A DNA stretch of 55,088 nucleotides. It comes from an uncultured Lachnospiraceae bacterium (lineage in GTDB: Bacteria; Bacillota; Clostridia; Lachnospirales; Lachnospiraceae). The DNA lies in contig CAMWKB010000006.1 in assembly GCA_947174705.1 (NCBI GenBank), positions 1 through 55,088 on the forward strand, given 5' to 3'. The position numbers and the translations under genes were made by a program. The notes beneath the pieces were generated by a model. The model was given only the letters and a program-made list of their open reading frames with translations. It did no database searches and was not told the origin of the DNA. Positions 4,562-34,935 of the stretch are shown here, in pieces; the first letter of the stretch is position 1, and each line of letters opens with the position of its first letter.

Positions 4562-4670
4562 ACTGATTATTACAGAACGTGCTGATGAACTGCTTGATAA
4601 TCTTATACATCATTTAATATATCGGTTAAAAAATGAACAAGCTGCCCGACATTTGTTGGATGGAATAAAT
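4551..4670 (+). pseudogene. Truncated RelE/ParE-type toxin
   Basis: The first 39 or so codons match a RelE/ParE toxin start (A-Y-K-L-I-I-T, then A-D-E-L-L-D-N-L, then A-A-R-H-L-L-D-G-I). After about 4667 the resemblance stops abruptly. The frame stays open to 4865, but the added residues look unrelated to toxin and run antisense through the 3' end of the convergent hydrolase gene. The core beta-sheet and catalytic C-terminal residues of the toxin are missing. The gene is therefore best read as a deletion remnant. Confidence 0.75.
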
Positions 4671-4756
4671 ATAAATGAACACCAGGGGCATATCCATAAT
4701 CCTGCCCCTATTCATTTTGAAAAAACAGTGAAATCAAGCGGTAAGCAAAAGAAAAT

Positions 4757-5740
4757 TTACAATATCAATTCCCAGTACCTCTCCAATAAATCCGTCCCGG
4801 AATTGAATATTTCATGTTTAGTTCCGGGAACCTTAATCATCTTAGCATTTCCGGGCTTATTATGATTCAATTTGTCTACGAACTGTACCTGTTCTTCCTG
4901 AGAGACATAATTTTCGTTATCAGCCTGAAAAACAAGCACAGGACAGTCAATTAGGCGCCAAGCCTTATTCTTAAGATAACTGTTTAGCCGTGCAGTCTGC
5001 CAAAGCCATCCGTAGGATGCCGCGCTCATCTGGTACAAAGGTTCTTTACATCTTTTTTGATTATAAAAGTTAAATCTTGCTTCTGAGACAGAGGCGCTGT
5101 CTGCAAATAATTCGGGTCCTTCATAGGGATGGTTTCCGTTTACATAACATTCCGCTTTTCCGGCCATACAAAATAATCTGGCGATAAGGCGGGCCAAGGG
5201 CCAGGGAACGGGAGCGCTGCTTGGACGTATCATCGGTGAAGAGAGTACGAGCCTGGAAAATAATTCGGGTGCGCGTGCAGCCGCGGCAGCCGCGATACCG
5301 CCGCCCATAGAGTGCCCGTACAAAAGTACGGGCAGGTTAGGGAATTCCTTTGCTGCACTGCGTGCTATAAACAATAAATCTTCTACATATCTTGTATAAT
5401 CATCAACATGTACCAGAGATAAGTCTTTTGTATCGCTGCACATCCGGTAGCTTCGCCCGTGTCCGCAATGCTCCGCCATAAAGACATGATATCCCCCGCA
5501 AAGAAAATAGTAGATATTTTCCAGATGTTTCTCTATAGTCTCCGTATACCCATGCGATATTACCGCGATACCTTTCGGATTATCGGCAAGACACCGTATA
5601 TAAAAAATCTTTTTGCCTTCCTCACGTTCGCAATACTGCTCCGTTTTCCTCTGCTCAAGATATGGAAGGACCACTGTTTTCATTGTCTCATCGTATTTTT
5701 CTTCACGTAATATCATATTTTGAATTGCTTCTTTATTCAT
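4757..5740 (-). CDS. Alpha/beta hydrolase (monoglyceride lipase/lysophospholipase-like)
   Basis: 327 residues. The nucleophile elbow is G-H-S-M-G-G (Ser144), the oxyanion-side motif is I-S-H-G-Y-T-E (about 61-67), the acid is the Asp in F-Q-A-D-N-E, and the base is the His in G-T-K-H-E-I-F. This is the serine hydrolase_4 group that includes PldB and monoacylglycerol lipases. No signal peptide is seen, so it should act in the cytoplasm on a lipid or carboxyl ester. It lies 17 bases downstream of the MFS gene in the TetR operon. A weak hairpin (AGGGGCA/TGCCCCT, 4685-4710) beyond the stop may end the operon. Confidence 0.88.
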   Translation of the reverse strand: MNKEAIQNMILREEKYDETMKTVVLPYLEQRKTEQYCEREEGKKIFYIRCLADNPKGIAVISHGYTETIEKHLENIYYFLCGGYHVFMAEHCGHGRSYRMCSDTKDLSLVHVDDYTRYVEDLLFIARSAAKEFPNLPVLLYGHSMGGGIAAAAAARAPELFSRLVLSSPMIRPSSAPVPWPLARLIARLFCMAGKAECYVNGNHPYEGPELFADSASVSEARFNFYNQKRCKEPLYQMSAASYGWLWQTARLNSYLKNKAWRLIDCPVLVFQADNENYVSQEEQVQFVDKLNHNKPGNAKMIKVPGTKHEIFNSGTDLLERYWELIL

Positions 5741-5757
5741 TTTATATTAATTCCTTT

Positions 5758-7104
5758 TTATATACTCTCATTTATTTTGCGCTCATTATAGAACAGGAAC
5801 ACCAGCCCGCCAAGCACGCAGAACGAAGCTGCCCCAAAAGCCGCAATACGATACCCCACGCCGGATGAGGTTCCAATCGTGGAAACCGCCGTAAACAGCA
5901 GCATAGAAAGACTCTGTCCAAGTTTAAAAGCAAAGGTTCTGGCCGCATAGAACATTCCTTCGCGGTTGCTTCCCGTGCGTTTTGCATCGCTTTGGGCGAT
6001 ATCGGCAACAACTGCCTGGGGAAGAATTCCGAATACAGCCATTGGAAGCGAAGCCACAACCATCAGGATAAAACCTTGTATATTGGAAGGAATCGGTAAG
6101 AAGCTGCCGAGAAATCCTGTATACAGATAAGATAGTGCAAATATTACAAAGGCTGTCAGTATAAGTTTCTTTTTCCCAAATTTAGGAGCAAGTTTGTTTA
6201 TCGGAATATAAAAGACTAACGACAGGGCGGTCATTCCGACAAAATAAATGGTTGTCATCGTTTCAGGCAGCTTTAAGAGACTGGTTACAAAGAAGGGAAG
6301 TCCTGTCTGGAACATGGTGATGGCAATCCAGTATAAAATATCGGAAGCTACAAATTTCCTGAATTCTTTATTCCTAAACGTAGCTGCAAGGGATGAAAAC
6401 GCCGTATCCTGTGAAGGAACCGTATTAACATATTCTTTTTCGTTGATAGACCAGACCGGTACCTGCATACAGATAAACGCTATTATTGCCATAACCGCAA
6501 ACGTTACACGGATTGCATTTACACGCCCGAATGAGGGAATCAGAGTTCCCCATATTACAGGAGCCAGATAAGCTACGGCAGTTCCTGCAATAAATGTAAA
6601 AGAGATTATTGTAGAAATATTTAAGCGTTCCTGCTGGTCGTGACCGAGTTCCGGTATTAAAGCGTTATATGGCGTACAATATGCCGTAATTGACAGATAG
6701 TATGTCATTACCATCAAGAATAGAAAAATTGCGTTTATCCAGCTGTTTTGGTTTACCGGAGACCAGAATACAAGAACGGTGGATAAAGCTAACGGCAGGG
6801 ATGCCCATTTTAAGAACGGAATTCGTCTGCCTTTTTCGGAAGTACAGCGATCCGACAAAGATGCGATCCAGGGATCGGTAATAGCATCAAAAAGCCGTCC
6901 GAAAGCCGTAATGCCGCCGATTATTGTAAAAATTCCCAAGATAACAAGTCCCTGCGGAACAAAAACAATCTGTCCCTGTGCGATAGATGCTTCATCGGGC
7001 TGATAGAAATAAACCAGCCAGTTTGAAATTAAGCCGGACAACAGCGACCAACCGAACTGTCCGGTGGCAAAAAGCCATATTTTTTGTGTAGATAGTGATT
7101 TCAT
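5758..7104 (-). CDS. GPH-family (MelB-like) sugar:cation symporter
   Basis: 448 residues with twelve hydrophobic segments. The N-terminal signature F-G-R-L-F-D-A-I-T-D-P-W-I-A and S-E-K-G-R-R-I-P-F-L matches the glycoside-pentoside-hexuronide:cation symporters (MelB, YicJ types), where the Asp residues of helix II bind the coupling cation. It should import a glycoside or a related solute across the plasma membrane. Its ATG overlaps the TetR stop codon (ATGA), so it is translationally coupled to its probable repressor. No glycosidase is linked; the neighbour is an ester hydrolase, so an unusual substrate is possible. Confidence 0.88.
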   Translation of the reverse strand: MKSLSTQKIWLFATGQFGWSLLSGLISNWLVYFYQPDEASIAQGQIVFVPQGLVILGIFTIIGGITAFGRLFDAITDPWIASLSDRCTSEKGRRIPFLKWASLPLALSTVLVFWSPVNQNSWINAIFLFLMVMTYYLSITAYCTPYNALIPELGHDQQERLNISTIISFTFIAGTAVAYLAPVIWGTLIPSFGRVNAIRVTFAVMAIIAFICMQVPVWSINEKEYVNTVPSQDTAFSSLAATFRNKEFRKFVASDILYWIAITMFQTGLPFFVTSLLKLPETMTTIYFVGMTALSLVFYIPINKLAPKFGKKKLILTAFVIFALSYLYTGFLGSFLPIPSNIQGFILMVVASLPMAVFGILPQAVVADIAQSDAKRTGSNREGMFYAARTFAFKLGQSLSMLLFTAVSTIGTSSGVGYRIAAFGAASFCVLGGLVFLFYNERKINESI

Positions 7105-7778
7105 AGTGTACCTCCATTCTCAGTGTTATTTTTTCCTGCAAGCCCTTTTAATAGTAGATTTCCGGTAATGCGTACCTGCAATACCAGTTCGATCCTCTCA
7201 TCTGAAGAAAGGATGTATCCGTTATAGGATAGTTTTTGCATCAGGCTCAGCAGGGTATGCATGATTGAAAAATATACTTCTTCGACCGTATATGGGAAAT
7301 CAAGACTTCCATCCTTTAGACCTTTTTCTAAAGCGTCTGTTACATAAGGTTTAAGATTCAGGATACATTCTTCATATTCTGTCAGCCGTTCTTTGGGAAT
7401 ATTATATCTGCGGACAAAAATGTCAAACTCCTGAAGGAATTTTAAAAACTTAAATTCTTCTTCAAAAATTCTTATAAAAATTTGAAAAATACAGTGCATT
7501 TGGCAATATCCATTCTTTTCAATGTATTTTTCCTCTGATAAGGTGCATACATATTTTTCTGCGATTTTCTGCCAATAAGCAATCCCTGCTGAAATCGCAA
7601 GCTCTGCCTTGGTCTCAAAATAGCGGTAAATCGTAGCCGGTCCCACGCCTGCGGCCTTGGCAGCTTCTTCCACGGATGTATCTTCTATGCCCTTTTCACA
7701 GAACAGTTCCAGTGCCGCATTAAGAATTTGCCGGGTGCGTTGTTCCATCTGTTGTTTTCTTATTACGGACTCTCCCAA
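7101..7778 (-). CDS. TetR/AcrR-family repressor
   Basis: The N-terminal helix-turn-helix is clear: R-Q-I-L-N-A-A-L-E-L-F, then G-I-E-D-T-S-V-E-E-A-A-K-A-A-G-V-G-P-A-T-I-Y-R-Y-F (broken here at the turn, about residues 20-60). The C-terminal ligand domain has no recognisable motif. I place the start at the TTG at 7778, since it has a GGGAGG site seven bases upstream. The upstream GTG at 7802 has none and lies only about a dozen bases from the predicted transcription start. It is the first gene of a three-gene operon with the MFS transporter and hydrolase, and probably represses all three through the palindrome at 7813-7829. Confidence 0.87.
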   Translation of the reverse strand: MGESVIRKQQMEQRTRQILNAALELFCEKGIEDTSVEEAAKAAGVGPATIYRYFETKAELAISAGIAYWQKIAEKYVCTLSEEKYIEKNGYCQMHCIFQIFIRIFEEEFKFLKFLQEFDIFVRRYNIPKERLTEYEECILNLKPYVTDALEKGLKDGSLDFPYTVEEVYFSIMHTLLSLMQKLSYNGYILSSDERIELVLQVRITGNLLLKGLAGKNNTENGGTL

Positions 7779-12908: not shown

Positions 12909-13616
12909 ATGAGCATGCTGAAAGTAGATGATATTAATGTTTATTACGGAAATATTCATGCAATAAAAGGCATTTCCTTTGAGGTAAACGAGGGAGAAAT
13001 TGTAACATTAATAGGCGCTAACGGGGCAGGTAAATCCACAACCCTGAATACTGTTGCCGGACTTCTTAAACCTACTACCGGAAATGTTGAATTTGAAGGC
13101 AGCTCATTACTTGGAGTGCCTGCACATAAAATAGTTAATAAGGGGATGGCGCTTTGTCCGGAAGGAAGAAGAATCTTTTTGCAGCTTTCCGTACAGGAAA
13201 ACCTTGAAATGGGTGCATATACCCGTTCTTCTGCGGAAGTTGCCGATTTAATCGCAAGTGTATATGAGCGTTTTCCGCGACTTAAGGAAAGATATAAGCA
13301 GGTAGCCGGAACTTTGTCAGGCGGAGAACAGCAGATGCTTGCCATGGGACGTGCGCTTATGTCCAAGCCCAAACTTATGATGTTGGATGAACCTTCTATG
13401 GGTCTGGCGCCTATTTTGGTTGAAAAGATTTTTCAGATAATAGAAGAACTTAACAAGGCGGGAACAACTATCCTTCTTGTAGAGCAGAATGCGCAGATGG
13501 CTCTTTCTATAGCCCACAGAAGTTATGTTCTTGAGACCGGACGTATCGTTAATTCCGGAACCGGTGAAGAACTGCTTCATAATGACGCTGTCCGCAAGGC
13601 ATATCTGGGCGGCTAA
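12909..13616 (+). CDS. livF: Branched-chain amino acid ABC transporter ATPase LivF
   Basis: 235 residues with Walker A G-A-N-G-A-G-K-S-T-T, signature L-S-G-G-E-Q-Q-M-L-A, Walker B L-M-M-L-D-E-P-S-M-G-L-A-P and the LivF-specific C-P-E-G-R-R-I-F. It starts three bases after the livG stop. It is the last gene of the operon, which ends at the terminator at 13630. Confidence 0.95.
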   Translation: MSMLKVDDINVYYGNIHAIKGISFEVNEGEIVTLIGANGAGKSTTLNTVAGLLKPTTGNVEFEGSSLLGVPAHKIVNKGMALCPEGRRIFLQLSVQENLEMGAYTRSSAEVADLIASVYERFPRLKERYKQVAGTLSGGEQQMLAMGRALMSKPKLMMLDEPSMGLAPILVEKIFQIIEELNKAGTTILLVEQNAQMALSIAHRSYVLETGRIVNSGTGEELLHNDAVRKAYLGG

Positions 13617-24308: not shown

Positions 24309-25049
24309 ATGGGATATACGGAATCGAAGATAGAGGGACGGAATGCCGTGATTGAGGCATTTCGCTCAGGAAAGACTATTGATAAGCTATATATACTTGA
24401 TAATTGTCAGGATGGGCCGATCATGACGATAAAGAGAGAGGCTAAGAAGCAGGATTGTCTGGTTAAGTATGTAAAAAGGGAGAAACTCGATCAACTTTCA
24501 GAGACGGGAAAACATCAGGGAGTAGTCGCAATAACGTCGGCTTATGAGTACGCCAGTGTAGAGGATATATTGGAAAATGCGAGAAAGAAGGGGGAAGACC
24601 CTTTTATTTTGTTGTTGGACAGTATTGAAGACCCTCACAATCTTGGGGCTATAATAAGGACTGCAAACCAGGCAGGCGCGCATGGAGTCATTATTCCCAA
24701 AAACCGCGCGGTCGGTTTGACGGCGGCAGTTGCAAGAACTTCTGCGGGGGCGCTAAATTATACTCCGGTTGCAAAAGTGACTAATTTAGGCAAAACAATA
24801 GAAGAACTGAAGAAGGAAGGTTTGTGGTTCGTTTGTGCCGATATGTCCGGTACGACGATGTATCAGCTTGATTTGAAAGGTCCAATCGGACTTGTGGTAG
24901 GCAGTGAAGGCGAAGGCGTAGGAAGATTAGTAAAGGAGAAATGTGATTTCACTGCATCCATCCCCATGAAAGGAGATATTGATTCTCTGAATGTTTCGGT
25001 AGCGGCCGGGGTGCTTGCATATGAAATCGTAAGACAAAGGTTGGCATAA
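24309..25049 (+). CDS. rlmB: 23S rRNA (guanosine-2'-O)-methyltransferase RlmB
   Basis: 246 residues in the SpoU (SPOUT) family. The N-terminal substrate domain begins I-E-G-R-N-A-V-I-E-A-F. The knotted methyltransferase domain shows D-P-H-N-L-G-A-I-I-R-T-A (motif 1), V-V-G-S-E-G-E-G-V (motif 2) and I-P-M-K-G...S-L-N-V-S-V-A (motif 3). It should methylate G2251 (E. coli numbering) in the ribosomal P-loop. The ATG at 24309 has AAAGGAG six bases upstream; the longer in-frame start at 24243 does not match the family. Confidence 0.93.
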   Translation: MGYTESKIEGRNAVIEAFRSGKTIDKLYILDNCQDGPIMTIKREAKKQDCLVKYVKREKLDQLSETGKHQGVVAITSAYEYASVEDILENARKKGEDPFILLLDSIEDPHNLGAIIRTANQAGAHGVIIPKNRAVGLTAAVARTSAGALNYTPVAKVTNLGKTIEELKKEGLWFVCADMSGTTMYQLDLKGPIGLVVGSEGEGVGRLVKEKCDFTASIPMKGDIDSLNVSVAAGVLAYEIVRQRLA

Positions 25050-26590
25050 TGAAAAAATCACATGATTATTTATTTATAGCTACATTAATAATGATGGCAT
25101 TTCTTGTGGCAGCAGCGGCATTCAAGGCTTATGACAACTATGTCATAAATAAAGAAGAACAAGAGTTTGAAAGTCAGGAAATGGCAGCAATTATGGCAAG
25201 AAATGCCGAATCCCAGAGACGCGTTACGGAAATGGAAGCTGAAATTGCACAAATGGTAGATGATTTGGAGAGTTTACAGACATTTATCAATGATACCGTT
25301 ACTGCTGCGAACGAGGTGCAGATCAGAAAGAGTACGCTCAGTGTGTCAGAAAATGTCGTCTCTGTTTTATCGGGTGAAACTTTGAAAGACTCAGTTTCCG
25401 ATAATATGCCGGTTTATGGTGCAATGACGGTGTCGGGGAATTATACAGTATCGGGGGATTATACGGTTTCAGGAGATTATGTGGTTTCCGGGAACGGATT
25501 GTATATTGATGGAACGGCTGTTTCGGGTAATGAGGCGGTGCCTGCGCTCAGTGGGGCTGTCTTGTCCGGAAATGGTGCATTTGGTATGGGTATTTTAAGT
25601 AACAGTATTTCCGGAAATGGAGCTTTTGGAAGTGGCGTTTCAGGGAATGGGGCTTTTGATAGTGGAATTTCGGGAAATGAAGGTTTTGTAATTGATATTT
25701 CAGGGAATAGTGTTTCGGGGAATGGTATATCTGGGAATGATATCTCGGGAAATAGCATTTCAGATAATAGTGTTTCTGGGAATTTGACCAGTTTAGTCAA
25801 TGCATCGGGTAATGGTTATTACGGTACATGGCAGTATGAACCGCCTGAGATGAGTCTGGAAGAGAGAAGGACTTTAAAAACCTCTTATGAAGAAACTTTG
25901 GAAGTAAATAATGCGGATAGAGAAATTATTGCCTCTAATCAGTACGATTTTTCACAGATGAAAATTGCCTGTCTGGGAGATAGTATTACGGCAGCCGCAA
26001 ATCTGGAAAATGAAGAGAATTATACCCAGTATTCTTATCCTTCTGTCCTTGGGGAAATATTAGGTGCGGGCGAGGTCGTAAATCTTGGCATCGGAGGTTC
26101 GTCAATCGGCAGATACTGGGCAGATGCTTATGTTGAGCGTTATATGCAGATTCCTGAGGATACGGACATAATTATAGTTATGGGCGGTACGAATGACGGT
26201 TTTTGTGTATCCGATAATGAGTTTGGAAATCTCAATGAAAGGACTCCGCGTACTTTTTGCGGAGATTTGAACGAGCTTATGAAGGGGCTTAGGGAGAATT
26301 ATCCCCATGCAGCTATCTTTTTTGCGACGCCGCTTCCGAATGTATTGCATGATTATCTTATGAGTGAAAAAGAATATCTTTTGCCGCAGAGATACTTTGC
26401 GGATGCAATACGGACGATTGCAAGGGAATACGGTATCGAGACGATTGATTTATACAATTCAAATATTCTGGACTCCCATGACGCAAATATTGTTGCGCAG
26501 TATATGCCGGACGGCGTACATGGAAACCACGAGGGATACCGGATAATAGCAGAGCATTTTGCGGCCGGGATTGTAGAGTATTATAAATGA
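25049..26590 (+). CDS. Membrane-anchored SGNH/GDSL hydrolase with VSGN repeats
   Basis: 513 residues in three parts. A signal-anchor helix (about residues 8-26) is followed by a coiled-coil segment (35-85). Residues 127-255 form a low-complexity stalk of about 17 four-residue units V/I/L-S-G-N/D, often spaced by G-A-F. The SGNH hydrolase domain begins near 303: C-L-G-D-S-I-T (Ser312), N-L-G-I-G-G-S, G-G-T-N-D and D-G-V-H-G-N-H. It should be an extracellular esterase or deacetylase held off the membrane by the stalk. ATG overlaps the rlmB stop (TAATG), and sigH follows directly. The substrate is unknown, with cell-wall or polysaccharide acetyl groups most plausible. Confidence 0.85.
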   Translation: MKKSHDYLFIATLIMMAFLVAAAAFKAYDNYVINKEEQEFESQEMAAIMARNAESQRRVTEMEAEIAQMVDDLESLQTFINDTVTAANEVQIRKSTLSVSENVVSVLSGETLKDSVSDNMPVYGAMTVSGNYTVSGDYTVSGDYVVSGNGLYIDGTAVSGNEAVPALSGAVLSGNGAFGMGILSNSISGNGAFGSGVSGNGAFDSGISGNEGFVIDISGNSVSGNGISGNDISGNSISDNSVSGNLTSLVNASGNGYYGTWQYEPPEMSLEERRTLKTSYEETLEVNNADREIIASNQYDFSQMKIACLGDSITAAANLENEENYTQYSYPSVLGEILGAGEVVNLGIGGSSIGRYWADAYVERYMQIPEDTDIIIVMGGTNDGFCVSDNEFGNLNERTPRTFCGDLNELMKGLRENYPHAAIFFATPLPNVLHDYLMSEKEYLLPQRYFADAIRTIAREYGIETIDLYNSNILDSHDANIVAQYMPDGVHGNHEGYRIIAEHFAAGIVEYYK

Positions 26591-27238: not shown

Positions 27239-27275
27239 AGCTGCTGACGGGAATCGGACCCGTGACCTCCGCACT
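27239..27275 (-). repeat. Displaced 3' end of tRNA-Thr (att duplication)
   Basis: These 37 bases are identical to 34792-34828. On the minus strand they encode the anticodon 3' stem, variable loop, T-arm and acceptor 3' strand of tRNA-Thr, but no 5' half exists here, so no tRNA can be made. Similarity continues four bases past a single mismatch (27276). The T-run just beyond it (minus strand, 27238 downward) is probably the original end of the host tRNA gene. Confidence 0.9.
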
Positions 27276-27436
27276 GCCAACAATATATTTTTCATTTGAT
27301 ATTTATTGGTAGTGTTGCGGAAGTATTGATTTCATTAGATTTTTCTTTCAATCCTATGCTTATCTCATTTATCTCAATTATACTTGCCAAAAACTTTAAC
27401 ATTATACTGTGCTATTTCCATTCTGGCGGTTTTCAA

Positions 27437-27607
27437 CTATGCATACATCAAACGACCTTTAGGTTGTGGTATTTCCTGTCCTATCTCCTTGGCTGTTTCA
27501 ATCCATTCAGAAATGTTTTCGTTACTCGAACATAATCCGACCATCCTCTCGAATTTGGTTTTAGTAAACCAGGGCCTAAAATCGTTACTCAGACTAACTT
27601 GTATTTA
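27437..27607 (-). pseudogene. Remnant resembling the C-terminus of a HicB antitoxin
   Basis: A 56-codon minus-strand frame with no proper start ends in W-I-E-T-A-K-E-I-G-Q-E-I-P-Q-P-K-G-R-L-M-Y-A, broken here into W-I-E-T-A-K-E-I-G and I-P-Q-P-K-G-R-L-M-Y-A. That ending is typical of HicB-type antitoxins. The upstream half of the frame does not look like HicB and no HicA is visible. It is probably a fragment left by recombination in the island's left end. Confidence 0.45.
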
Positions 27608-27730
27608 GTTTCACAACTGGAAACAATAAGTCTGAGCCAACTAAAAGAAAAGATGAACAGTTCAAAGAGGAAAAGTGGTCTCACCGCTTAACGATTGATC
27701 AATCACCGAACAATCGGCACCGTTCTTTAA

Positions 27731-27838
27731 ATGAAAATGGAAACATACACCATGCGCGTATTAATTGACGGACAAATCAACTATTATGACGTGGCAGACG
27801 TGACCCGGATAATGAACGCACTCCGAATTAGCGGTTGA
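27731..27838 (+). CDS. Possible 35-codon ORF in the island's left end
   Basis: The frame opens at ATG 27731 and encodes a short peptide with T-M-R-V-L-I-D-G-Q-I-N-Y-Y-D-V-A-D-V. There is no ribosome-binding site and it resembles no family I know. The composition is protein-like, so it may be a remnant. The rest of 27285-27874 shows no intact gene, only short open frames in AT-rich sequence. Confidence 0.2.
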   Translation: MKMETYTMRVLIDGQINYYDVADVTRIMNALRISG

Positions 27839-27874
27839 ACGTTTTCGCTTGATCATGTGGATATTTTTCGGGAC

Positions 27875-27903
27875 TTGATAATGTAGTCGTTTTGTACTAC
27901 AAT
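27875..27903 (+). promoter_or_regulatory. Promoter of the lipid operon
   Basis: TTGATA (27875-27880), 17 bases, TACAAT (27898-27903). The first gene starts 27 bases later. An inverted repeat TGTAGT...ACTACA (27882-27887 and 27896-27901) overlaps the spacer and -10 box and could be an operator. Confidence 0.7.
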
Positions 27904-27930
27904 TTAATAGGTATAGTGGGGACTTGAATT

Positions 27931-28284
27931 ATGAAAAACAACAGCTTTCTGCAAAGCGTGAAGTGTGCCGTCAAGGGCGTGGCAAGCGGATTTCACGCGG
28001 AGCGTAATTTTAAGATATACACGGTCATCGCACTTATTTTTCTCGCGCTGAATATTATCACATCGTCTGGTTTTTATGATTATATTATCCTGCTTGTTCT
28101 GACTTGCGGGGCTTTCTCCGCCGAATACATCAATACCGCGATAGAGCGTCTGTGCGACAGTTTTTGCCCCAAGATTGACAAAAACGTTAGCTTCATCAAG
28201 GATGTGGCGGCAGCCGCGGTGTGTGTCACGGGAATTGCTTTTTTTGGCGCTGAAGGTGCGATACTGATCTCAAATCTGCTATGA
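27931..28284 (+). CDS. dgkA: DgkA-type membrane lipid kinase (diacylglycerol or undecaprenol kinase)
   Basis: 117 residues, the family's normal length, with three membrane helices. H-A-E-R-N-F-K-I (about 23-30), E-Y-I-N-T-A-I-E-R-L (about 70-79) and K-D-V-A-A-A-A-V are the conserved active-site features. It phosphorylates a lipid alcohol with ATP. In Gram-positive bacteria the substrate is often undecaprenol. Here it heads a phospholipid operon, so it may make a phosphatidate-like precursor for the CDP-lipid synthase, with which it overlaps by four bases (ATGA). Confidence 0.9.
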   Translation: MKNNSFLQSVKCAVKGVASGFHAERNFKIYTVIALIFLALNIITSSGFYDYIILLVLTCGAFSAEYINTAIERLCDSFCPKIDKNVSFIKDVAAAAVCVTGIAFFGAEGAILISNLL

Positions 28285-28856
28285 TTATTTTGAAAATGTA
28301 CATAACAATGTTTCCTGTGATCATCGCGGGAATACTGAATATGATGTTCGTGAAAACGCCTATGTATAAACACGTTAACCGTCCGATTGACGGCGGCGGG
28401 ACGCTTCGCGACGGCAAGCGGGTTTTCGGGGAAAACAAGACGTGGGCGGGATTTTTCGGGATGATCGTTTTCGGAGCGGCGGCGCAGGTGCTGTGGGGGC
28501 TTGTGTGCACGGGATTTCCCGAGCTCTGCCGGATCTATTCGCGTTTCGGGAATACTCCGCTGTTCAATCTTGCGGCGGGCGCGGCAATGGGTTTCGTGTA
28601 TGTTCTTTTCGAGCTTCCGAACAGTTTTGTCAAGCGCCGTCTTGATATTCCGAGTGGTAAAACGGCGCGCGGTTTAAAAGGCGCGGTGTTCTTTGTCATA
28701 GATCAGGTGGACTCGCTTTTCGGAGTTGCGGGAGTGTTCGCGGTACTGTTTCCAATGACGGTTTGGGAATATTTTGCGTATATTCTCCTCGGTGCGGGAA
28801 CGCACATCGCCGTCAACTCAATACTATATGCCACACGAATTCGCAAAAACTTGTGA
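28281..28856 (+). CDS. CarS-like CDP-lipid synthase (CDP-archaeol synthase family)
   Basis: 191 residues with about five membrane helices. The family signature is clear: R-P-I-D-G-G-G-T-L-R-D-G-K-R-V-F-G and N-K-T-W-A-G-F-F-G (about 33-61), L-P-N-S-F-V-K-R-R-L-D-I-P-S-G (about 113-127) and F-F-V-I-D-Q-V-D-S-L-F-G (about 137-148), whose Asp residues bind Mg and CTP. CarS activates archaeal unsaturated archaetidic acid, and bacterial members are poorly characterised. Here it should turn a phosphatidate-type lipid into its CDP form for the next enzyme. It is distinct from ordinary CdsA. Confidence 0.85.
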   Translation: MIILKMYITMFPVIIAGILNMMFVKTPMYKHVNRPIDGGGTLRDGKRVFGENKTWAGFFGMIVFGAAAQVLWGLVCTGFPELCRIYSRFGNTPLFNLAAGAAMGFVYVLFELPNSFVKRRLDIPSGKTARGLKGAVFFVIDQVDSLFGVAGVFAVLFPMTVWEYFAYILLGAGTHIAVNSILYATRIRKNL

Positions 28857-28863
28857 GGGAAAA

Positions 28864-29478
28864 ATGTTTATTGGGAAATACAACAAATCTGTGATTTTAA
28901 CATACATCGGCGTTGCAGCGGCGTTCGCGGGTATAGCTTTCACTGTCGAGACTATGCTCGCGCCAGCGATGATCGCGCTTGCCGCTGCCGGAATATGTGA
29001 TCTCTTTGACGGAGTTATTGCGCGGCGGTGCAAGCGCGACGAAACTGAAAAAGAATTCGGCGTGCAGATAGACAGTCTCGCGGACGTTGTGGGATTTCTG
29101 GCGCTGCCCGCGGTTCTGGGCATGAGGCTTGCCGATGGCATTGGTATCGTGAAATATCCGCTTCTTTTCTGCTATGTGCTATGCGGGATCATACGGCTTG
29201 CATGGTTCAATACCTCCGCGGCGACAGAGGGTGTACTGACGCATTACGATGGGCTTCCCGTAACTTATGCGGCATTGATCCTTCCCGTAACATATGCGGT
29301 TTTGGGATTTTTCCCCGAATTTAACGCCGCGTTGATATGGGCGGCGGAATATGCGGTCATTGCGGTGCTGTTTATCCTGAAAGTGAAGATCGTCAAGCCG
29401 CGCGGAGTATGGTACATTATTTTCGGCGCGCTTGCTGTTGGGATCATCACGTTGATCTTGGTGAGAGATATTTTATGA
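28864..29478 (+). CDS. pssA: CDP-alcohol phosphatidyltransferase, PssA (phosphatidylserine synthase) type
   Basis: 204 residues with about six hydrophobic helices. The catalytic motif is present as D-G-V-I-A-R, then R-C-K-R-D-E-T-E-K-E-F-G, then V-Q-I-D-S-L-A-D (about 40-68), with all four Asp. The K-E-F-G-V-Q-I-D-S-L form is typical of Gram-positive PssA, which joins L-serine to CDP-diacylglycerol. The decarboxylase next door supports serine as head group. GAGGGA precedes ATG 28864, eight bases after the previous stop. Confidence 0.85.
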   Translation: MFIGKYNKSVILTYIGVAAAFAGIAFTVETMLAPAMIALAAAGICDLFDGVIARRCKRDETEKEFGVQIDSLADVVGFLALPAVLGMRLADGIGIVKYPLLFCYVLCGIIRLAWFNTSAATEGVLTHYDGLPVTYAALILPVTYAVLGFFPEFNAALIWAAEYAVIAVLFILKVKIVKPRGVWYIIFGALAVGIITLILVRDIL

Positions 29479-30332
29479 TGATTTATGACAGAGCCGCGGG
29501 AGAGCTTCGCGAGGAGCTTGAGTACGGCGCGGGGAGCCTTGATTTTCTCTATAACACAGCGTTCGGAAGGGTGCTGCTGAAAGCGTTTTTCTGCCGCGGT
29601 ATATATTCCCGAATAAACGGGGCGTTTATGAGGAGCAGACTTTCGGTAAGAAAGATCAACCCCTTTATCAAAAAATACGGAATTGATCTTTCACTGTGCG
29701 AACACACCGAATTCAAAAGCTTCGACGATTTTTTCACGCGCCGATGCCGCTTCACAACATACTGTTCCGCTGATGAACTGATAGCGCCGTGCTGCGGGAG
29801 GCTCGTTGCGTATCCGATAGCCGACGAGCTCACACTGAAGATCAAACGCAGTGTATACACACTGTCGGAGCTCACGGGCGGAATTGACGTTTCAGGCTTT
29901 GGCGATGGGGTTTGCCTTGTTTACCGTCTCGCCGTTGAAGATTGTCATAGATACGTCTTTTGTGACGACGGCGAGCTTATCCGCACGGAGGAGCTTCGCG
30001 GAGAGCTTCACACGGTGCGCCCAATCTCGGAAAAGTACCGCGTTTTCTCACGCAATCACCGCATTTGCTCCCTGCTCAGAACCAAACATTTCGGGGAAAT
30101 GATACAGATAGAGGTAGGGGCTTTGCAGATCGGAAAGATCACCAATCACGCTGTCACCGGTTTTTCGCGAATGGACGAAAAGGGATATTTCGGCTTTGGA
30201 GGTTCGACGATAATACAGCTCTTCAAAAGCGGTGTGGCAGAGCTCGACGACGACATACGCTTGAATTCCGAAAACGGCACGGAAACACTTGTTAAAACGG
30301 GAGAGAGAGTAGCGAGGAGGTTAAAATGCTAA
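29475..30332 (+). CDS. psd: Phosphatidylserine decarboxylase
   Basis: 285 residues. Family hallmarks: F-K-S-F-D-D-F-F-T-R-R (about 78-88), F-S-R-N-H-R-I (the catalytic His region), V-G-A-L-Q-I-G-K-I and the self-cleavage motif G-G-S-T near residue 237, which yields the pyruvoyl cofactor on the small alpha subunit. G-G-S-T replaces the commoner L-G-S-T, as in type II enzymes. It converts phosphatidylserine to phosphatidylethanolamine at the membrane. ATG 29475 overlaps the pssA stop (ATGA). Confidence 0.9.
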   Translation: MMIYDRAAGELREELEYGAGSLDFLYNTAFGRVLLKAFFCRGIYSRINGAFMRSRLSVRKINPFIKKYGIDLSLCEHTEFKSFDDFFTRRCRFTTYCSADELIAPCCGRLVAYPIADELTLKIKRSVYTLSELTGGIDVSGFGDGVCLVYRLAVEDCHRYVFCDDGELIRTEELRGELHTVRPISEKYRVFSRNHRICSLLRTKHFGEMIQIEVGALQIGKITNHAVTGFSRMDEKGYFGFGGSTIIQLFKSGVAELDDDIRLNSENGTETLVKTGERVARRLKC

Positions 30333-31225
30333 AGCGTCTTAATATTTATTTCAAGGAAATGTATCCGATAATTCCGCGTCTTTTGCTTGGAATTATCGTA
30401 TTCGGTGAGATATATTTCATTGTGCTGCTCAACAACGGCGTGACGGAATTCAAGATCAATTATCAGGAATTTATTGGCGGATTTACGGTGTTCAGCTTTC
30501 TTCTTTGGCTCCGTATCGCGGACGACTTCAAGGATTATGAGCTTGACTGTCGCCTGTTCTCGAGCAGACCGCTTCCGTCGGGTCGCGTAAAAAAGCGCGA
30601 TCTCGGTATTTTCGTGGGAATTCTCATCGCCGTGACGGTGACGCTGAATGCTGTTTTTATGAACAACTTTTGGTTTTTCCTGTTTCTGTATGTTTACGGA
30701 ACGCTGATGTCTATGTGGTTTTTCAGCAGAAAAAAGATACAGAAAAGCCTGCCTTTGGCGCTCGTAACGCACAATCCCGTGCAGATGATAATGAACATTT
30801 ACATCATCTCGTTCACCTGCATAAAATACGGTCTTTCCGCGTGGACTCTTACAAACTTTCTTGCTGCTTGGACGCTCTATTTCCCTGCGCTTATCTGGGA
30901 GGTCTCGCGGAAGATACGCGCTCCGAAGGACGAGACGGAATACGTTACATATTCCAGTCTGTTCGGTTACAAAAAATCAACCGTGTTCGTACTTGTTCTC
31001 ACTTGGGTGGACATTCTTACAAACGTGCTCCTTGTTTGGAACCTTAACAAGATATCCGTTGCGGCACTGTTGCTCAACACAGGTTGGATGACGTTTAAAT
31101 TTGTGCAGTTCATAAAAGACCCGACACGCTTTAAGATCGTTGATAAAGTGGAGCGATACACGTACATTCAGGAAACGATGATGCTCATTACGGTAGCGGC
31201 GTTCCTGATTTTCGGAAAGGTGTAA
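30326..31225 (+). CDS. UbiA-superfamily prenyltransferase-like membrane protein
   Basis: 299 residues, about eight to nine membrane helices. The first Asp-rich motif, R-I-A-D-D-F-K-D-Y-E-L-D, followed by S-S-R-P-L-P-S-G-R-V (about 60-85), matches the ND-x-x-D-x-x-x-D site of UbiA enzymes. The second, R-K-I-R-A-P-K-D-E-T-E-Y (about 190-201), matches the other diphosphate-binding loop. Such enzymes transfer a prenyl chain to an aromatic or, in archaea (DGGGP synthase), to a glycerol ether. The acceptor is unknown; in this operon a lipid or head group is likely. GAGGAGG precedes the ATG, which overlaps psd by seven bases. Confidence 0.75.
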   Translation: MLKRLNIYFKEMYPIIPRLLLGIIVFGEIYFIVLLNNGVTEFKINYQEFIGGFTVFSFLLWLRIADDFKDYELDCRLFSSRPLPSGRVKKRDLGIFVGILIAVTVTLNAVFMNNFWFFLFLYVYGTLMSMWFFSRKKIQKSLPLALVTHNPVQMIMNIYIISFTCIKYGLSAWTLTNFLAAWTLYFPALIWEVSRKIRAPKDETEYVTYSSLFGYKKSTVFVLVLTWVDILTNVLLVWNLNKISVAALLLNTGWMTFKFVQFIKDPTRFKIVDKVERYTYIQETMMLITVAAFLIFGKV

Positions 31226-31227
31226 GT

Positions 31228-33567
31228 ATGATAATCGATGATGAAAATTATAAGGAACAGCCCATTGGCGCAAAGGCGAGAAATCTCTTTAAACTGCGGG
31301 AAAACGGCTTTAACGTCCCGCCGTTTTTCTGCGTTTTAGGGGATGAAAAATGTGATCCGGAGAGATGTGCGTCTGATTTTTTCGGGGAGGACAAGCTCGT
31401 TTCGGTGCGCTCGTCGGCGAGTGCTGAGGACGGCGCAAGTGTGTCGTATGCAGGACAATTCCACACGGAGCTGGAGATTCGCATGAATGAGATCAATTCA
31501 GCTGTGGAACGCGTATGCTCCGTGCCGAAAAGCAAAGGGTTTTTCGAATACTGCAAAACGAATGGGATCGCTCCCGAAGAAATCACTGTCTGTGCCATTG
31601 TCCAGGAAATGATATCCGCCGATCTGTCGGGAGTGATCTTCACCGCAAATCCGCAAGGTATCCTAAATGAAACAGTAGCGGTCATCGGAAGCGGAACGGG
31701 CGACAATGTAGTCGAGGACAAATCCCCGACGAGCACATATTACTACAACACCACGGACGGGCTCTATTACAGCGAACAGACGGAGAATTCTCCGAAGATA
31801 TCCGAAACTGTTCTTAAAGAGCTTGTTGAGGTCTCGGAGAAAATAAAAAATCTTTTCGGGCATGAGTGCGACATTGAGTTCGCGATAAAAAACGACGAGA
31901 TCTTTATTCTGCAGGCGCGTCCGATAACCTCGCTGAAATGCGGTTCTCCGATCGTTCTCGACAACAGCAACATCGTCGAAAGCTATCCGGGAATTACGCT
32001 GCCGCTTACGCAGAGTTTTATCCGCACGGCATATTACCGCGTTTTCCGCTCCGTTCTGCTTCGTTTGACGCATGAGCCGAAAACCGTTGCCATGATCGAC
32101 GACATTCTCCGAAACATGGTAGACGCGGCGAGCGGACGGATATACTACCGTATCAGCAATTGGTATGATGTTATTTTGTTCCTGCCGTTCAGCCGGAAAA
32201 TAATCCCCGTGTGGCAGGAAATGCTTGGCGTGAAGAACAAAAATGTAACGTCTCACCTTAACCGTAAGATCGGCTTGGTAACTCACGTTAAGGTCACACT
32301 GTCGTTTGTTTGGCTGATACTCGCGTGTCCGAGGCTAATGGAGAAGCTAGACGTTGAGTTTAAGGAAATGATACGTTTTTTCAAGTCCGTTGATCTTAAT
32401 TCCGCGGGAGCGGAGGAGATACTTTCGCATTATCGGAACATTCTTGACAAGGTTACAGCAAAGTGGGATCTGACCTTGGTGAACGATATGTACACGTTCA
32501 TTTTCACGGGGCTGTTGAAATCCCGGTTAAAATCTGATCCCGCAGAAGCCAATCGCCTTATTTCGGGGCTTAACGGAATAGAGAGCATGAAGCCCGTGAC
32601 AGAGCTTGTAAAGCTTTCGCGGCTTGCAAAAGAGAGCGGCGAGCTTTCGCGGCTTGAGAGAATACATAACGCAGCGGATTTCCGCGCGTACATGAAAAAC
32701 GGCAAGCTCGCGCAAAGGCTCGCAGCGTACATCGAGCATTACGGAGATCGCAACGCTGAGGAACTCAAGCTCGAAAGCCTGACGTTCCGCACGAACCCCG
32801 AGCTTCTAGCTCAAAAGATCGTTCAATACGCGGGAGCGGGCGCGGAAGTACCAAACGGCTTCGAACAAAAAACTGAGCCGAAGGGCTTGTGCAAAGCATT
32901 CGCGAAAAGGGCGGCAGTCGGGATAAAGAACCGCGAAAAGTCCCGATTGAACCGTTCGAGACTTTACGGAATGATGCGTTCGATGATGCTTAAGGTCGGC
33001 GAGGAGCTTAGCGCCGTAGATGTGATCTCTGCGCCGCGTGACATTTTTTATCTTGAATATTCTGAGGTCGAAACGGCGGTGAAAAGCGGAAAGGATATGC
33101 GAAGCCTCGTTGAACAGCGCCGCGAGATGTATCGGCGCTTTGAAAAGCTCCCCGCGTACACACGATTGATCTTCGCGGAAAAGGTCTTTGACAGAGCTCC
33201 GAAAAATGTCGACGGACCGGAAACGAAACGAACCACAAACACGCTTGAGGGCACGCCGTGCTCTATGGGAAAAGCGCGGGGTGAGGTGATCGTTATCACC
33301 GATCCGACCTCAAGTCACGACACAGTGGGAAAGATAATCGTCGCTAAAATGACCGATCCGGGCTGGGTCTTTCTCATCGTTGGCGCGGCGGGAATAATCA
33401 CGGAAAAGGGCTCGCTGTTGTCTCACACGGCGATAATTTCGCGGGAACTGAAAAAGCCTGCGGTCGTCGGGGTTGACGGCGCGGCGAGTATCCTCAGAAA
33501 CGGCGATACGGTCGAGGTCGACGGAGCTTCGGGGCGGATAACGGTGATAGAGAGGTGTTTGAAATGA
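31228..33567 (+). CDS. PEP-synthase/rifampin-phosphotransferase-like dikinase
   Basis: 779 residues. The N-terminal ATP-grasp domain (1-235) has S-V-R-S-S-A-S-A-E-D (Arg61), G-V-I-F-T-A-N-P and the closing Q-A-R-P-I-T. A long middle region (240-690) is unlike known substrate domains. The C-terminal swivelling domain carries the phospho-His in S-L-L-S-H-T-A-I-I (His733). The PEP/pyruvate barrel of PpsA and PpdK is absent. This plan equals rifampin phosphotransferase, which moves a phosphate from ATP to an alcohol. It probably phosphorylates a small molecule or lipid alcohol in this pathway. It starts two bases after the UbiA stop and overlaps the next gene (ATGA). Confidence 0.8.
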   Translation: MIIDDENYKEQPIGAKARNLFKLRENGFNVPPFFCVLGDEKCDPERCASDFFGEDKLVSVRSSASAEDGASVSYAGQFHTELEIRMNEINSAVERVCSVPKSKGFFEYCKTNGIAPEEITVCAIVQEMISADLSGVIFTANPQGILNETVAVIGSGTGDNVVEDKSPTSTYYYNTTDGLYYSEQTENSPKISETVLKELVEVSEKIKNLFGHECDIEFAIKNDEIFILQARPITSLKCGSPIVLDNSNIVESYPGITLPLTQSFIRTAYYRVFRSVLLRLTHEPKTVAMIDDILRNMVDAASGRIYYRISNWYDVILFLPFSRKIIPVWQEMLGVKNKNVTSHLNRKIGLVTHVKVTLSFVWLILACPRLMEKLDVEFKEMIRFFKSVDLNSAGAEEILSHYRNILDKVTAKWDLTLVNDMYTFIFTGLLKSRLKSDPAEANRLISGLNGIESMKPVTELVKLSRLAKESGELSRLERIHNAADFRAYMKNGKLAQRLAAYIEHYGDRNAEELKLESLTFRTNPELLAQKIVQYAGAGAEVPNGFEQKTEPKGLCKAFAKRAAVGIKNREKSRLNRSRLYGMMRSMMLKVGEELSAVDVISAPRDIFYLEYSEVETAVKSGKDMRSLVEQRREMYRRFEKLPAYTRLIFAEKVFDRAPKNVDGPETKRTTNTLEGTPCSMGKARGEVIVITDPTSSHDTVGKIIVAKMTDPGWVFLIVGAAGIITEKGSLLSHTAIISRELKKPAVVGVDGAASILRNGDTVEVDGASGRITVIERCLK

Positions 33568-34646
33568 GCTTAACGGCAGTCGTTATTGACGGCGGTGACA
33601 AAAAAAGAACGCGTGATTTTCTCGCGCTCCCAAGAAGAATTTATTCGGCAGACGAGCTCATGCAAAGTCCCGCGGACGAGCTTGCGCTCTTGAACGGCAC
33701 ACATACCCTGAGCCGATATTTTACCGTTACGCCTATCCTGATCTACCGCGGGAACCGTGCTGTAAGCCGTGCTGCAGTCACGCTCTACCCGAATGACAAC
33801 ACCGCATATGTCGGCTTTTTCGAGAGCGAAAACGACAGCGAAGCTGCAGCGCTTCTGTTTAAAACAGCGGGTGAAATAGCCGCAAAAAACGGCTGCGTAA
33901 AACTGACGGGACCCGTTGACTGTTCTTTTTGGATAAAGTACAGACTGAAAACCAACCGCTTCGGTTCGCCTTATACCGGTGAGCCCTACAACAAGGAGTA
34001 TTACGCCGATTTGTGGTATGAAAACGGATTTGAGGTGATCAAGCGTTATTCCTCAAATCACTACAAGATCGTGGAGAATGACGACGGCTGTGAAAAATAC
34101 GCCGCGCGGCTCGCGGAAAGGCTGAACGAGGGTTACACGATCAAATGTCCCGATAACGGGACATTTGACAAGACGCTGCGAGAGGTATATTCTTTGCTGA
34201 TAGATCTGTACAGTAATTTTCCGGTGTACAAGCGTATAACAGAGGAGGAGTTTTGCCGGATGTATGGTTACCTGCGGCATATTCTTAATTACAGCATGGT
34301 GAAAATGGCGTATTTTGATGGAGCGCCCGTGGGATTTTTCATTTCCGTACCAAATTTCGGAAACCGCGTTTACGGCAGACTTGATCCGCTGAAAATGCTC
34401 CGAATTCTCTTGGAAAAACGCAAGCCGCGTTCTTATGTAATGCTCTATATGGGGGTTGATAATAAACACCTCGGTTTGGGAAGGGCGCTTGCCGAAGCCG
34501 TCCGCGAGGAGCTGAAAACGCAATGTGTACCGTCCATCGGAGCACTTATTCGTGAGGGCAGCTACAGCAAGAGTTATATGGTTCAGTTCAGAGATTTTGA
34601 ATATGAGTACGTTCTTCTTGAAAAAACGATAGGTGAAGGCTTTTAA
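33564..34646 (+). CDS. GNAT-fold acyltransferase-like protein (YghO type)
   Basis: 360 residues. The N-terminal half shows R-D-F-L-A-L-P-R-R-I-Y near residue 17, then L-T-G-P-V-D-C-S-F-W and a P-Y-N-K-E-Y-Y-A-D-L-W segment. These resemble YghO-like proteins, which occur near lipid genes in other bacteria. The C-terminal half is a GNAT domain with M-G-V-D-N-K-H-L-G-L-G-R-A-L (acyl-CoA loop). It may acylate the amine made by the decarboxylase or another intermediate. It is the last gene of the operon. The acyl donor and acceptor cannot be read from sequence. Confidence 0.65.
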   Translation: MSLTAVVIDGGDKKRTRDFLALPRRIYSADELMQSPADELALLNGTHTLSRYFTVTPILIYRGNRAVSRAAVTLYPNDNTAYVGFFESENDSEAAALLFKTAGEIAAKNGCVKLTGPVDCSFWIKYRLKTNRFGSPYTGEPYNKEYYADLWYENGFEVIKRYSSNHYKIVENDDGCEKYAARLAERLNEGYTIKCPDNGTFDKTLREVYSLLIDLYSNFPVYKRITEEEFCRMYGYLRHILNYSMVKMAYFDGAPVGFFISVPNFGNRVYGRLDPLKMLRILLEKRKPRSYVMLYMGVDNKHLGLGRALAEAVREELKTQCVPSIGALIREGSYSKSYMVQFRDFEYEYVLLEKTIGEGF

Positions 34647-34739
34647 GATCGCGTTCCCACATATGAATTGATACTTGCCAACGGCTTCTTTGACTGATCT
34701 TTGGACTCTTATGATACGCTCATGGGTTCAATCTTACAC

Positions 34740-34785
34740 AAAAAAAATATTGACCTTAAAACCTCAAAAGCCTTTAAAGTCAATA
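34740..34785 (-). terminator. Terminator of tRNA-Thr (minus strand)
   Basis: On the minus strand TATTGAC...GTCAATA (34785-34779 and 34754-34748) forms a hairpin, extended by weaker A-T pairs, and is followed by eight T. It lies inside the island next to the tRNA, so the element supplied a new terminator to the tRNA it invaded. 34647-34739 shows nothing else. Confidence 0.75.
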
Positions 34786-34791
34786 CTTGCG

Positions 34792-34864
34792 AGCTGCTGA
34801 CGGGAATCGGACCCGTGACCTCCGCACTACCAATGCGACGCACTACCGACTGTGCTACAGCAGC
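34792..34864 (-). tRNA. tRNA-Thr (anticodon GGT)
   Basis: A complete cloverleaf on the minus strand. Acceptor GCTGCTG/CAGCAGC is perfect, the D-stem is GCAC/GTGC, the anticodon stem TCGCA/TGCGG holds loop TTGGTAG with anticodon GGT, and the T-arm is ACGGG-TCCGATT-CCCGT. The discriminator is T and no CCA is encoded. Its 3' half is duplicated at 27239-27275, marking it as the island's attachment site. Its function is preserved. Confidence 0.93.
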
Positions 34865-34905
34865 TTATTACCTGATAAACAACTATTTGCTGTTTACCGA
34901 TGTGT

Positions 34906-34935
34906 ATTGTATCATATGTTATTTTACTTTGTCAA
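34906..34935 (-). promoter_or_regulatory. Promoter of tRNA-Thr
   Basis: On the minus strand TTGACA (34935-34930), 18 bases, TACAAT (34911-34906), with the tRNA 42 bases downstream. The rest of 34936-35102 is very AT-rich and shows two TTTTGTATAA copies, possibly part of the promoter of the divergent EAL-HDOD gene. Confidence 0.75.

Follow-up and report, generated by a model that had tools for sequence, protein, structure and literature searches.

The stretch analysed here (the window) covers positions 1-55,088 of contig CAMWKB010000006.1 of an uncultured Lachnospiraceae bacterium from the gut; its + strand carries at positions 27931-34646 an operon of seven abutting genes for putative lipid enzymes (dgkA, carS-like, pssA-like, psd, UbiA-like, dikinase and GNAT), lying within an island at a tRNA-Thr gene. 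Our results support a horizontally acquired operon that is foreign to its genus and recurs in scattered Clostridia while the island is local. An initial annotation, which had described a transferable aminophospholipid operon in a tRNA island, is confirmed and also enlarged, as the operon belongs to a recurrent modular lipid cluster that reaches beyond the local island. Overall, we consider it probable that this tRNA-Thr cargo specifies a modular route to an aminophospholipid whose backbone is non-standard.

Operon layout and foreign origin

The operon and its promoter comprise the following features (CDP, cytidine diphosphate; PEP, phosphoenolpyruvate).

27875-27903, + strand: predicted operon promoter, TTGATA-17 nt-TACAAT (-35/-10 pair, from the sequence pattern)
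27931-28284, + strand: dgkA, predicted lipid alcohol kinase (PF01219, 75 bits); a second dikinase takes its place at other loci
28281-28856, + strand: carS-like, predicted CDP-lipid synthase (PF01864, 45.5 bits); a normal CdsA is encoded elsewhere in the genome besides
28864-29478, + strand: pssA-like, predicted CDP-lipid:serine phosphatidyltransferase (PF01066, 47.1 bits)
29475-30332, + strand: psd, predicted phosphatidylserine decarboxylase (PF02666, 109.9 bits); sole copy found in the genome
30326-31225, + strand: predicted integral membrane transferase of the UbiA superfamily (NCBIfam PRK13592)
31228-33567, + strand: Dik1, PEP-synthase/rifampin-phosphotransferase-like dikinase (PPDK_N 117.6 bits, PEP-utilizers 79.8 bits)
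33564-34646, + strand: predicted tandem-GNAT acyltransferase, YghO/aca-related, with kinship to the N-acyltransferase of bacterial ceramide clusters

None of the seven reading frames is interrupted. The intergenic distances along the operon are -4, +7, -4, -7, +2 and -4 nt (overlaps of 4-7 nt, spacers of 2-7 nt), with the starts of pssA, psd and gnat (28864, 29475 and 33564) set by comparison with relatives. Promoter pairs of this pattern occur 19 times in the whole stretch against 10.5 expected by chance; this one falls within the segment homologous to two related loci, L071 and L072, and the same 17-nt arrangement can be read ahead of dgkA in L071, L072 and a third locus, L077. The seven overlapping or touching genes behind one promoter described initially were thus confirmed. 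The operon had also been called GC-rich, and its composition bore this out as foreign: GC content at third codon positions (GC3) is 0.54-0.60, with all seven genes above the 35 other open reading frames (ORFs) of at least 200 amino acids in the window (mean 0.411, standard deviation 0.045, maximum 0.507), slightly earlier starts being used for pssA and gnat in this comparison.

The distribution of the UbiA-like protein points the same way. Among 77 genomes of the genus it gave two matches, the window's own and one in genome G427 with 30% identity and six stops. The pattern named initially as telling against transfer, every close relative with these genes in this place and no tRNA duplication, was not what we observed: an intact UbiA was found in none of the 76 other congeners, and a sister species has different cargo at the site. 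The 397 genomes of the family gave 15 matches, its own included, and the 398 genomes of the phylum gave six at an E-value of 0.001, of which only its own exceeded the family cut-off. A scan of species genomes returned 296 stretches encoding UbiA relatives; the best 80 of these, with 14 loci from the family-genome search, make up the 94 loci read here. By record title, carriers include Lachnoanaerobaculum orale DSM 24553, Pseudobacteroides cellulosolvens DSM 2933 and Lachnospiraceae bacterium KH1P17. The nearest UbiA relatives (97-89%) come from metagenome-assembled genomes (MAGs) labelled, as deposited, Oscillospiraceae, Ruminococcaceae or Clostridia, and also Acetatifactor and Lachnospiraceae; because these labels are mixed, we assign the operon to no donor lineage.

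Homology at the DNA level to L071, L072 and L077 runs from 27859-27912 to 34625-34630, and the flanks differ on both sides. A three-protein tree of 79 sequences, in which L131 carries a default dgkA label although its upstream part is missing, places the window beside L072 and L071 (support 1.0), with L077 joining next (1.0). Of the Lachnospiraceae loci from the 397-genome search that the tree includes, none falls inside this group. No UbiA relatives were found in the plasmids or the viral contigs searched, and the island DNA had no match in the plasmids searched. A GNAT search of phages returned one unannotated faecal phage record with 25% identity. Against PHROGs, the seven proteins gave a family of unknown function for carS (28.8 bits) and a kinase family for the dikinase (74.2 bits), neither of them informative. 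A role in anti-phage defence was considered and set aside, as PADLOC gave no match for four of the seven proteins.

Gene content across relatives

Gene presence was counted by tblastn at 64 distinct, fully covered loci, i.e. the 94 minus 26 with short flanks and minus 4 same-contig duplicates, the window excluded. Both ubiA and dik1 occur at all 64 loci, followed by gnat (62), carS (53), dgkA (40), psd (35), pssA (32), an acyl-AMP ligase (29) and a second dikinase, dik2 (13), counts that are inflated by relatedness among the loci. Their co-occurrence is nested. Each of the 53 carS loci has exactly one of dgkA (40) or dik2 (13), the latter following carS; psd is present only alongside carS; and the 11 loci without carS also lack dgkA, dik2, pssA and psd. 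This nesting fits a linear pathway from backbone through phosphate, CDP and serine to ethanolamine. On the best reading of the gene content, ubiA, dik1 and gnat (genes 5-7) would therefore be the core and most constant part of the cluster, to which genes 1-4 would add a phosphoethanolamine head. The initial view that the last three genes are add-ons to ordinary phosphatidylethanolamine (PE) synthesis is not supported in that form, given this constancy and the 11 loci without any of genes 1-4.

In many relatives an eighth gene, the AMP-binding (acyl-AMP) ligase, lies between the dikinase and GNAT genes. It never occurs without gnat and is missing from 35 of the 64 loci; in L072 it sits exactly where the dikinase and gnat of the window overlap. 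The largest ORF families outside the operon in the 94 loci were, by sequence judgement, ABC-transporter-like (22 loci) and sigma-factor-like (14 loci), and neither was accepted as a partner given their scattered distances from ubiA (1.7-9.8 kb).

Proposed pathway and alternative explanations

The scheme that we favour would run in two modules. In the first, a small acceptor would receive a prenyl-type chain through UbiA, a step for which Dik1 would provide a phosphorylated substrate or intermediate. GNAT would acylate the resulting lipid alcohol X, with nitrogen as the most likely site by analogy with its relatives in ceramide clusters; the acyl thioester would come from the ligase that many relatives include in this module or, in the window's host, from host metabolism. 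In the second, DgkA (elsewhere Dik2) would phosphorylate X, CarS would turn X-phosphate into CDP-X, since housekeeping CdsA would not accept X-phosphate, and PssA would add a serine that Psd would decarboxylate, yielding a phosphoethanolamine lipid.

Genome-wide searches bear on the second module. An ordinary CdsA, apart from CarS, is encoded in all 18 genomes checked (17 carriers and the sister species G433), and the retention of CarS beside it is an argument for an X-phosphate that differs from ordinary phosphatidic acid. In 20 genomes searched for the DgkA family, the dgkA-type carriers had one copy, at the cluster's place (10/10), the dik2-type Lachnospiraceae had none (6/6), and G433 and two core-only genomes had none either. 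That Dik2 occupies DgkA's place in Lachnospiraceae with no other DgkA speaks for a lipid kinase function of Dik2. Escherichia coli DgkA phosphorylates ceramide in classical assays, which would fit the proposed scheme. Genomes with carS but no psd in the cluster encoded psd elsewhere in five of five cases. Phosphatidylserine decarboxylase was found in two of the 77 genus genomes, one being the window's own genome, which has it through the island, and the other G456 (contig C155, 29096-29680, the only other copy found in the genus); nearly all congeners seem unable to make the ethanolamine head group. The head-group gene set of phosphoethanolamine type proposed initially is supported by these results.

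An alternative explanation is an ordinary PE operon, in which dgkA, carS, pssA and psd would make diacyl-PE from host diacylglycerol, and UbiA, the dikinase and GNAT would modify the finished PE, for example by N-acylation. We regard this as unlikely. It agrees with PssA and Psd exceeding their Pfam cut-offs, with the rarity of psd in the genus, with the N-acyltransferases among the relatives of GNAT and with the presence of psd elsewhere in four of nine core-only genomes tested. However, the other five of these nine encode no phosphatidylserine decarboxylase and the core-only loci exist without any of the four head-group genes, so the core seems able to do without PE, and N-acyl-PE is disfavoured as a general product. 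The presence of CdsA in all 18 genomes checked would, moreover, leave CarS redundant; the ordinary pathway runs through CdsA, PssA and Psd, of which the operon shares the last two and has CarS while CdsA lies elsewhere in the genome.

The UbiA-like protein passed the curated cut-off of PRK13592 (NF010118; 446.4 bits against 443), fell just below that of Pfam UbiA (33.4 against 34.2) and scored 16.9 bits against PRK12883 (cut-off 353). Its residues D66, D67, D70, D74, E192 and E203 are invariant in 15 aligned sequences, the window's included. Its sole relative in the PDB is a digeranylgeranylglyceryl phosphate (DGGGP) synthase, a weak match (E 9.3e-5) over the first half only. This relative raises the possibility of an archaeal-type or hybrid glycerol ether lipid, with UbiA as DGGGP synthase, CarS as CDP-archaeol synthase and decarboxylation of archaetidylserine to an isoprenoid (or prenyl/acyl) glycerophospholipid. 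CarS and PssA also score best against archaeal models, and the operon's UbiA-, CarS- and PssA-like enzymes resemble the archaeal phospholipid pathway in this respect. The NCBIfam scores are nevertheless far under the equivalog cut-offs: CarS reaches 65 bits against 148 (45.5 bits against 22 in Pfam, thus over) and PssA 77 bits against 240 for archaetidylserine synthase, its best match. For geranylgeranylglyceryl phosphate (GGGP) synthase (PF01884), the first enzyme of that pathway, a search of 23 genomes gave no match over the cut-off; three partial matches, all weak, fell short of it. The operon also adds DgkA or a second dikinase, and its dikinase and acyltransferase would stay unexplained unless the lipid were a mixed prenyl/acyl one. 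With no GGGP synthase over cut-off we rejected the archaeal pathway as such, and we judge the wider archaeal-type or hybrid reading to be improbable, somewhat more so than ordinary PE.

Dik1 retains intact ATP-grasp and phospho-His domains, both shared with rifampin phosphotransferase and PEP synthase, and has the catalytic His and the ATP-grasp residues; H733 aligns with the active-site His of the rifampin phosphotransferase entries in the PDB, and the active-site residues are invariant in 14 aligned sequences, the window's included. Its best PDB matches, 5fbs, 5hv1 and 5hv2, were deposited as PEP synthase, and we take them to be rifampin phosphotransferase. In contrast to these enzymes, Dik1 lies in a lipid operon, a second copy of its kind replaces dgkA at some loci, and among the matches listed (25 of 30 families) it stays below every curated NCBIfam cut-off (best 794 against 850).

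The GNAT protein had no Pfam match at 0.001 and no NCBIfam match at 0.1, and against PDB sequences the single-sequence search was empty, while the profile search gave just a designed protein (E 0.4). Profile comparison with the YghO/aca-type N-acyltransferase gave 99.8% in hhalign (E 2.8e-28), which speaks for homology only. This likeness links the operon to the bacterial ceramide clusters, which comprise serine palmitoyltransferase (SPT), acyl carrier protein (ACP), acyl-AMP ligase, epimerase and the YghO/aca bacterial ceramide synthase: the GNAT is related and, in many relatives, has the ligase beside it. A further likeness is the adjacency of DgkA and GNAT in a ceramide-type cluster on a conjugative IncFIB plasmid of Klebsiella michiganensis (L168, NZ_CP106839.1), a cluster encoding class I/II aminotransferase, ACP, epimerase, fatty acyl-AMP ligase, N-acetyltransferase and diacylglycerol kinase. 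Unlike the ceramide clusters, the operon family has UbiA and the dikinase in place of SPT, ACP and epimerase, and a CDP-lipid/serine/ethanolamine branch follows in the operon. Searched at E 1e-3, the 94 loci gave no relatives of the SPT-type proteins, ACPs or epimerases encoded in L166-L168, and the negative result for the three SPT-type proteins applies to these loci, a genome-wide search not having been made.

From family membership we infer phosphorylation, prenylation and acylation by the last three gene products: N-acylation would follow from the relatives of GNAT, and prenylation from the UbiA fold family, the second motif being altered. We tentatively suggest, at less than even odds, that the cluster makes an undescribed membrane lipid class with a backbone built by UbiA and the dikinase and N-acylated by a ceramide-synthase relative, i.e. 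a sphingolipid analogue made without SPT, with its own CDP-lipid branch to phosphoethanolamine and with Dik2 lipid kinases replacing DgkA.

Several observations weigh against the favoured scheme. We infer every substrate and product in it. The second acidic motif of UbiA is altered (E192...E203, not a clear DxxxD), so its donor may not be a normal prenyl diphosphate, and the match to DGGGP synthase, its one PDB relative, is weak and partial. GNAT could O-acylate or use another donor: its top VIA matches are small-molecule acetyltransferases, and the tandem GNATs in its Foldseek list also include the aminoacyl transferases FemX and MprF. The window's operon lacks the ligase. Four core-only genomes do have psd, and Pseudobacteroides (G879) has Dik2 in the cluster plus a DgkA elsewhere. 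The dik2 loci form essentially one clade in the three-protein tree, with one dgkA locus (L130) nested inside, so independent swaps between dgkA and dik2 are few. Finally, many of the genomes are MAGs (the window's own is 84.5% complete), which makes the absences provisional and not proof.

Searches for the cluster or its parts in open-licence papers, judged by title and the beginning of the abstract, found no description of this gene cluster. A lipid cluster conserved in scattered Clostridia, named strains among them, predicts a lipid that can be sought at once, and its module pattern predicts that Dik2 is a lipid kinase in DgkA's place and that CarS serves a backbone that CdsA does not. Membrane head-group chemistry would here have arrived as a single transferable block in a genus mostly lacking it. 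Gut bacterial sphingolipids and related amino lipids affect their hosts; given these effects, a new lipid class in common gut families would, if true, be of wide interest.

The tRNA-Thr island

The island is delimited by the following features.

27239-27280, - strand: 42-nt copy of the tRNA-Thr 3' end (41/42 identical), the far island border, just past sigH
27281-27858, no strand: relic leader with a HicB-like antitoxin remnant (27432-27514, - strand) and a 35-amino-acid ORF (27731-27838, + strand)
34736-34791, - strand: hairpin (-19.4 kcal/mol) and T run directly after the tRNA 3' end, which reads as the tRNA terminator
34791-34864, - strand: tRNA-Thr(GGT), the integration site (tRNA call)

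The tRNA-Thr island with duplicated tRNA ends claimed initially is thus present. With other tRNA-associated genomic islands it shares direct 3'-end copies at both borders, an atypical composition and variable cargo in close relatives, and it differs from the usual ones in its lipid-pathway cargo, in having no integrase seen within 27281-34791 of the window and in the inversion of tRNA and island relative to sigH and the HDOD gene. We compared 29 sigH loci of congeners (L009-L037, with L008 as the window), the best of 60 genomes searched. In 16 of them tRNA-Thr follows sigH on its strand at a distance of 65-456 nt, in two (L027 and L028) it precedes sigH on that strand, and in 11 it is uncalled, in some because the contig ends first. 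All 18 loci with a call therefore have the tRNA on the sigH strand, unlike the window (34791-34935) and the sister species G433 (L164; SigH 97%), where tRNA-Thr, together with its promoter and terminator, has the opposite orientation between sigH and the HDOD gene. In G433, whose site is split over two contigs with apparently overlapping ends, the cargo differs (HTH protein, secreted protein, repeat protein); on one side, identity with the window sets in again precisely at the 3' end of the tRNA, and on the other it stops 21 nt into the tRNA-end copy.

Two further congeners carry related elements. In G461 (L170), which has toxin-antitoxin genes at the site, the order is sigH, tRNA-Thr, HicB-like gene, DUF2281, PIN, tRNA 3' copy and HDOD gene. 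Over 107 nt from 27239 the window shares 88.8% identity with L170:2346-2452, read as reverse complement, where this island has its far end; the window's leader also matches the HicB-like gene of L170 at 95% over 83 nt. The matching parts keep their order and are inverted. G407 (L173) has two tRNA-Thr end copies (45 nt, 98%; 36 nt, 86%) that flank DUF2281-PIN genes similar to those of G461, with a tyrosine integrase and an HTH_17 protein beside them, on a different contig from its sigH and with no whole tRNA called in the 9 kb read. The comparison with G433, G461 and G407 thus shows the tRNA-Thr site to be a real hotspot of integration; the island that holds the lipid operon is an inverted one of this family.

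The relic leader genes would also fit decayed or silent cargo, an operon that travels with the island and makes nothing in a host without the ligase found in L072. The open frames, the conserved promoter and the invariant residues kept in UbiA and the dikinase speak against this, as does the absence of the ligase from most other loci, and we consider it very improbable.

A lipid pathway as the sole cargo of a tRNA island, as proposed initially, holds for this window. A tRNA lies within the fetched stretch at six of the 94 other loci (two on the same contig); L057 and L065, the two of the six that were checked, have no second copy of the tRNA 3' end. In L138 a tRNA-Ser (13349-13435) stands shortly after dik1 and no gnat was found at the locus, possibly another tRNA-bounded break in a cluster.

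The 35-amino-acid leader ORF has no Pfam or NCBIfam match itself and is 42% identical over 33 residues to a protein at L077:4594-5157, which scores 26.9 bits against a NikA-like mobilization family (cut-off 27); that the ORF is part of such a protein is suggestive only. In L077, a MAG labelled Lapin, this NikA-like protein and a large serine recombinase (4594-7469) lie immediately 5' of the lipid operon. Among the congener sites, a further partial tRNA-Thr end copy of 30 nt lies about 340 nt downstream in L014 (2208-2649), and in L012 a truncated copy resembling a tRNA immediately precedes the tRNA itself. Immediately upstream of sigH in the window, 25049-26590 encodes what we judge from its sequence to be an SGNH-hydrolase-like protein with many VSGN/ISGN-type repeats.

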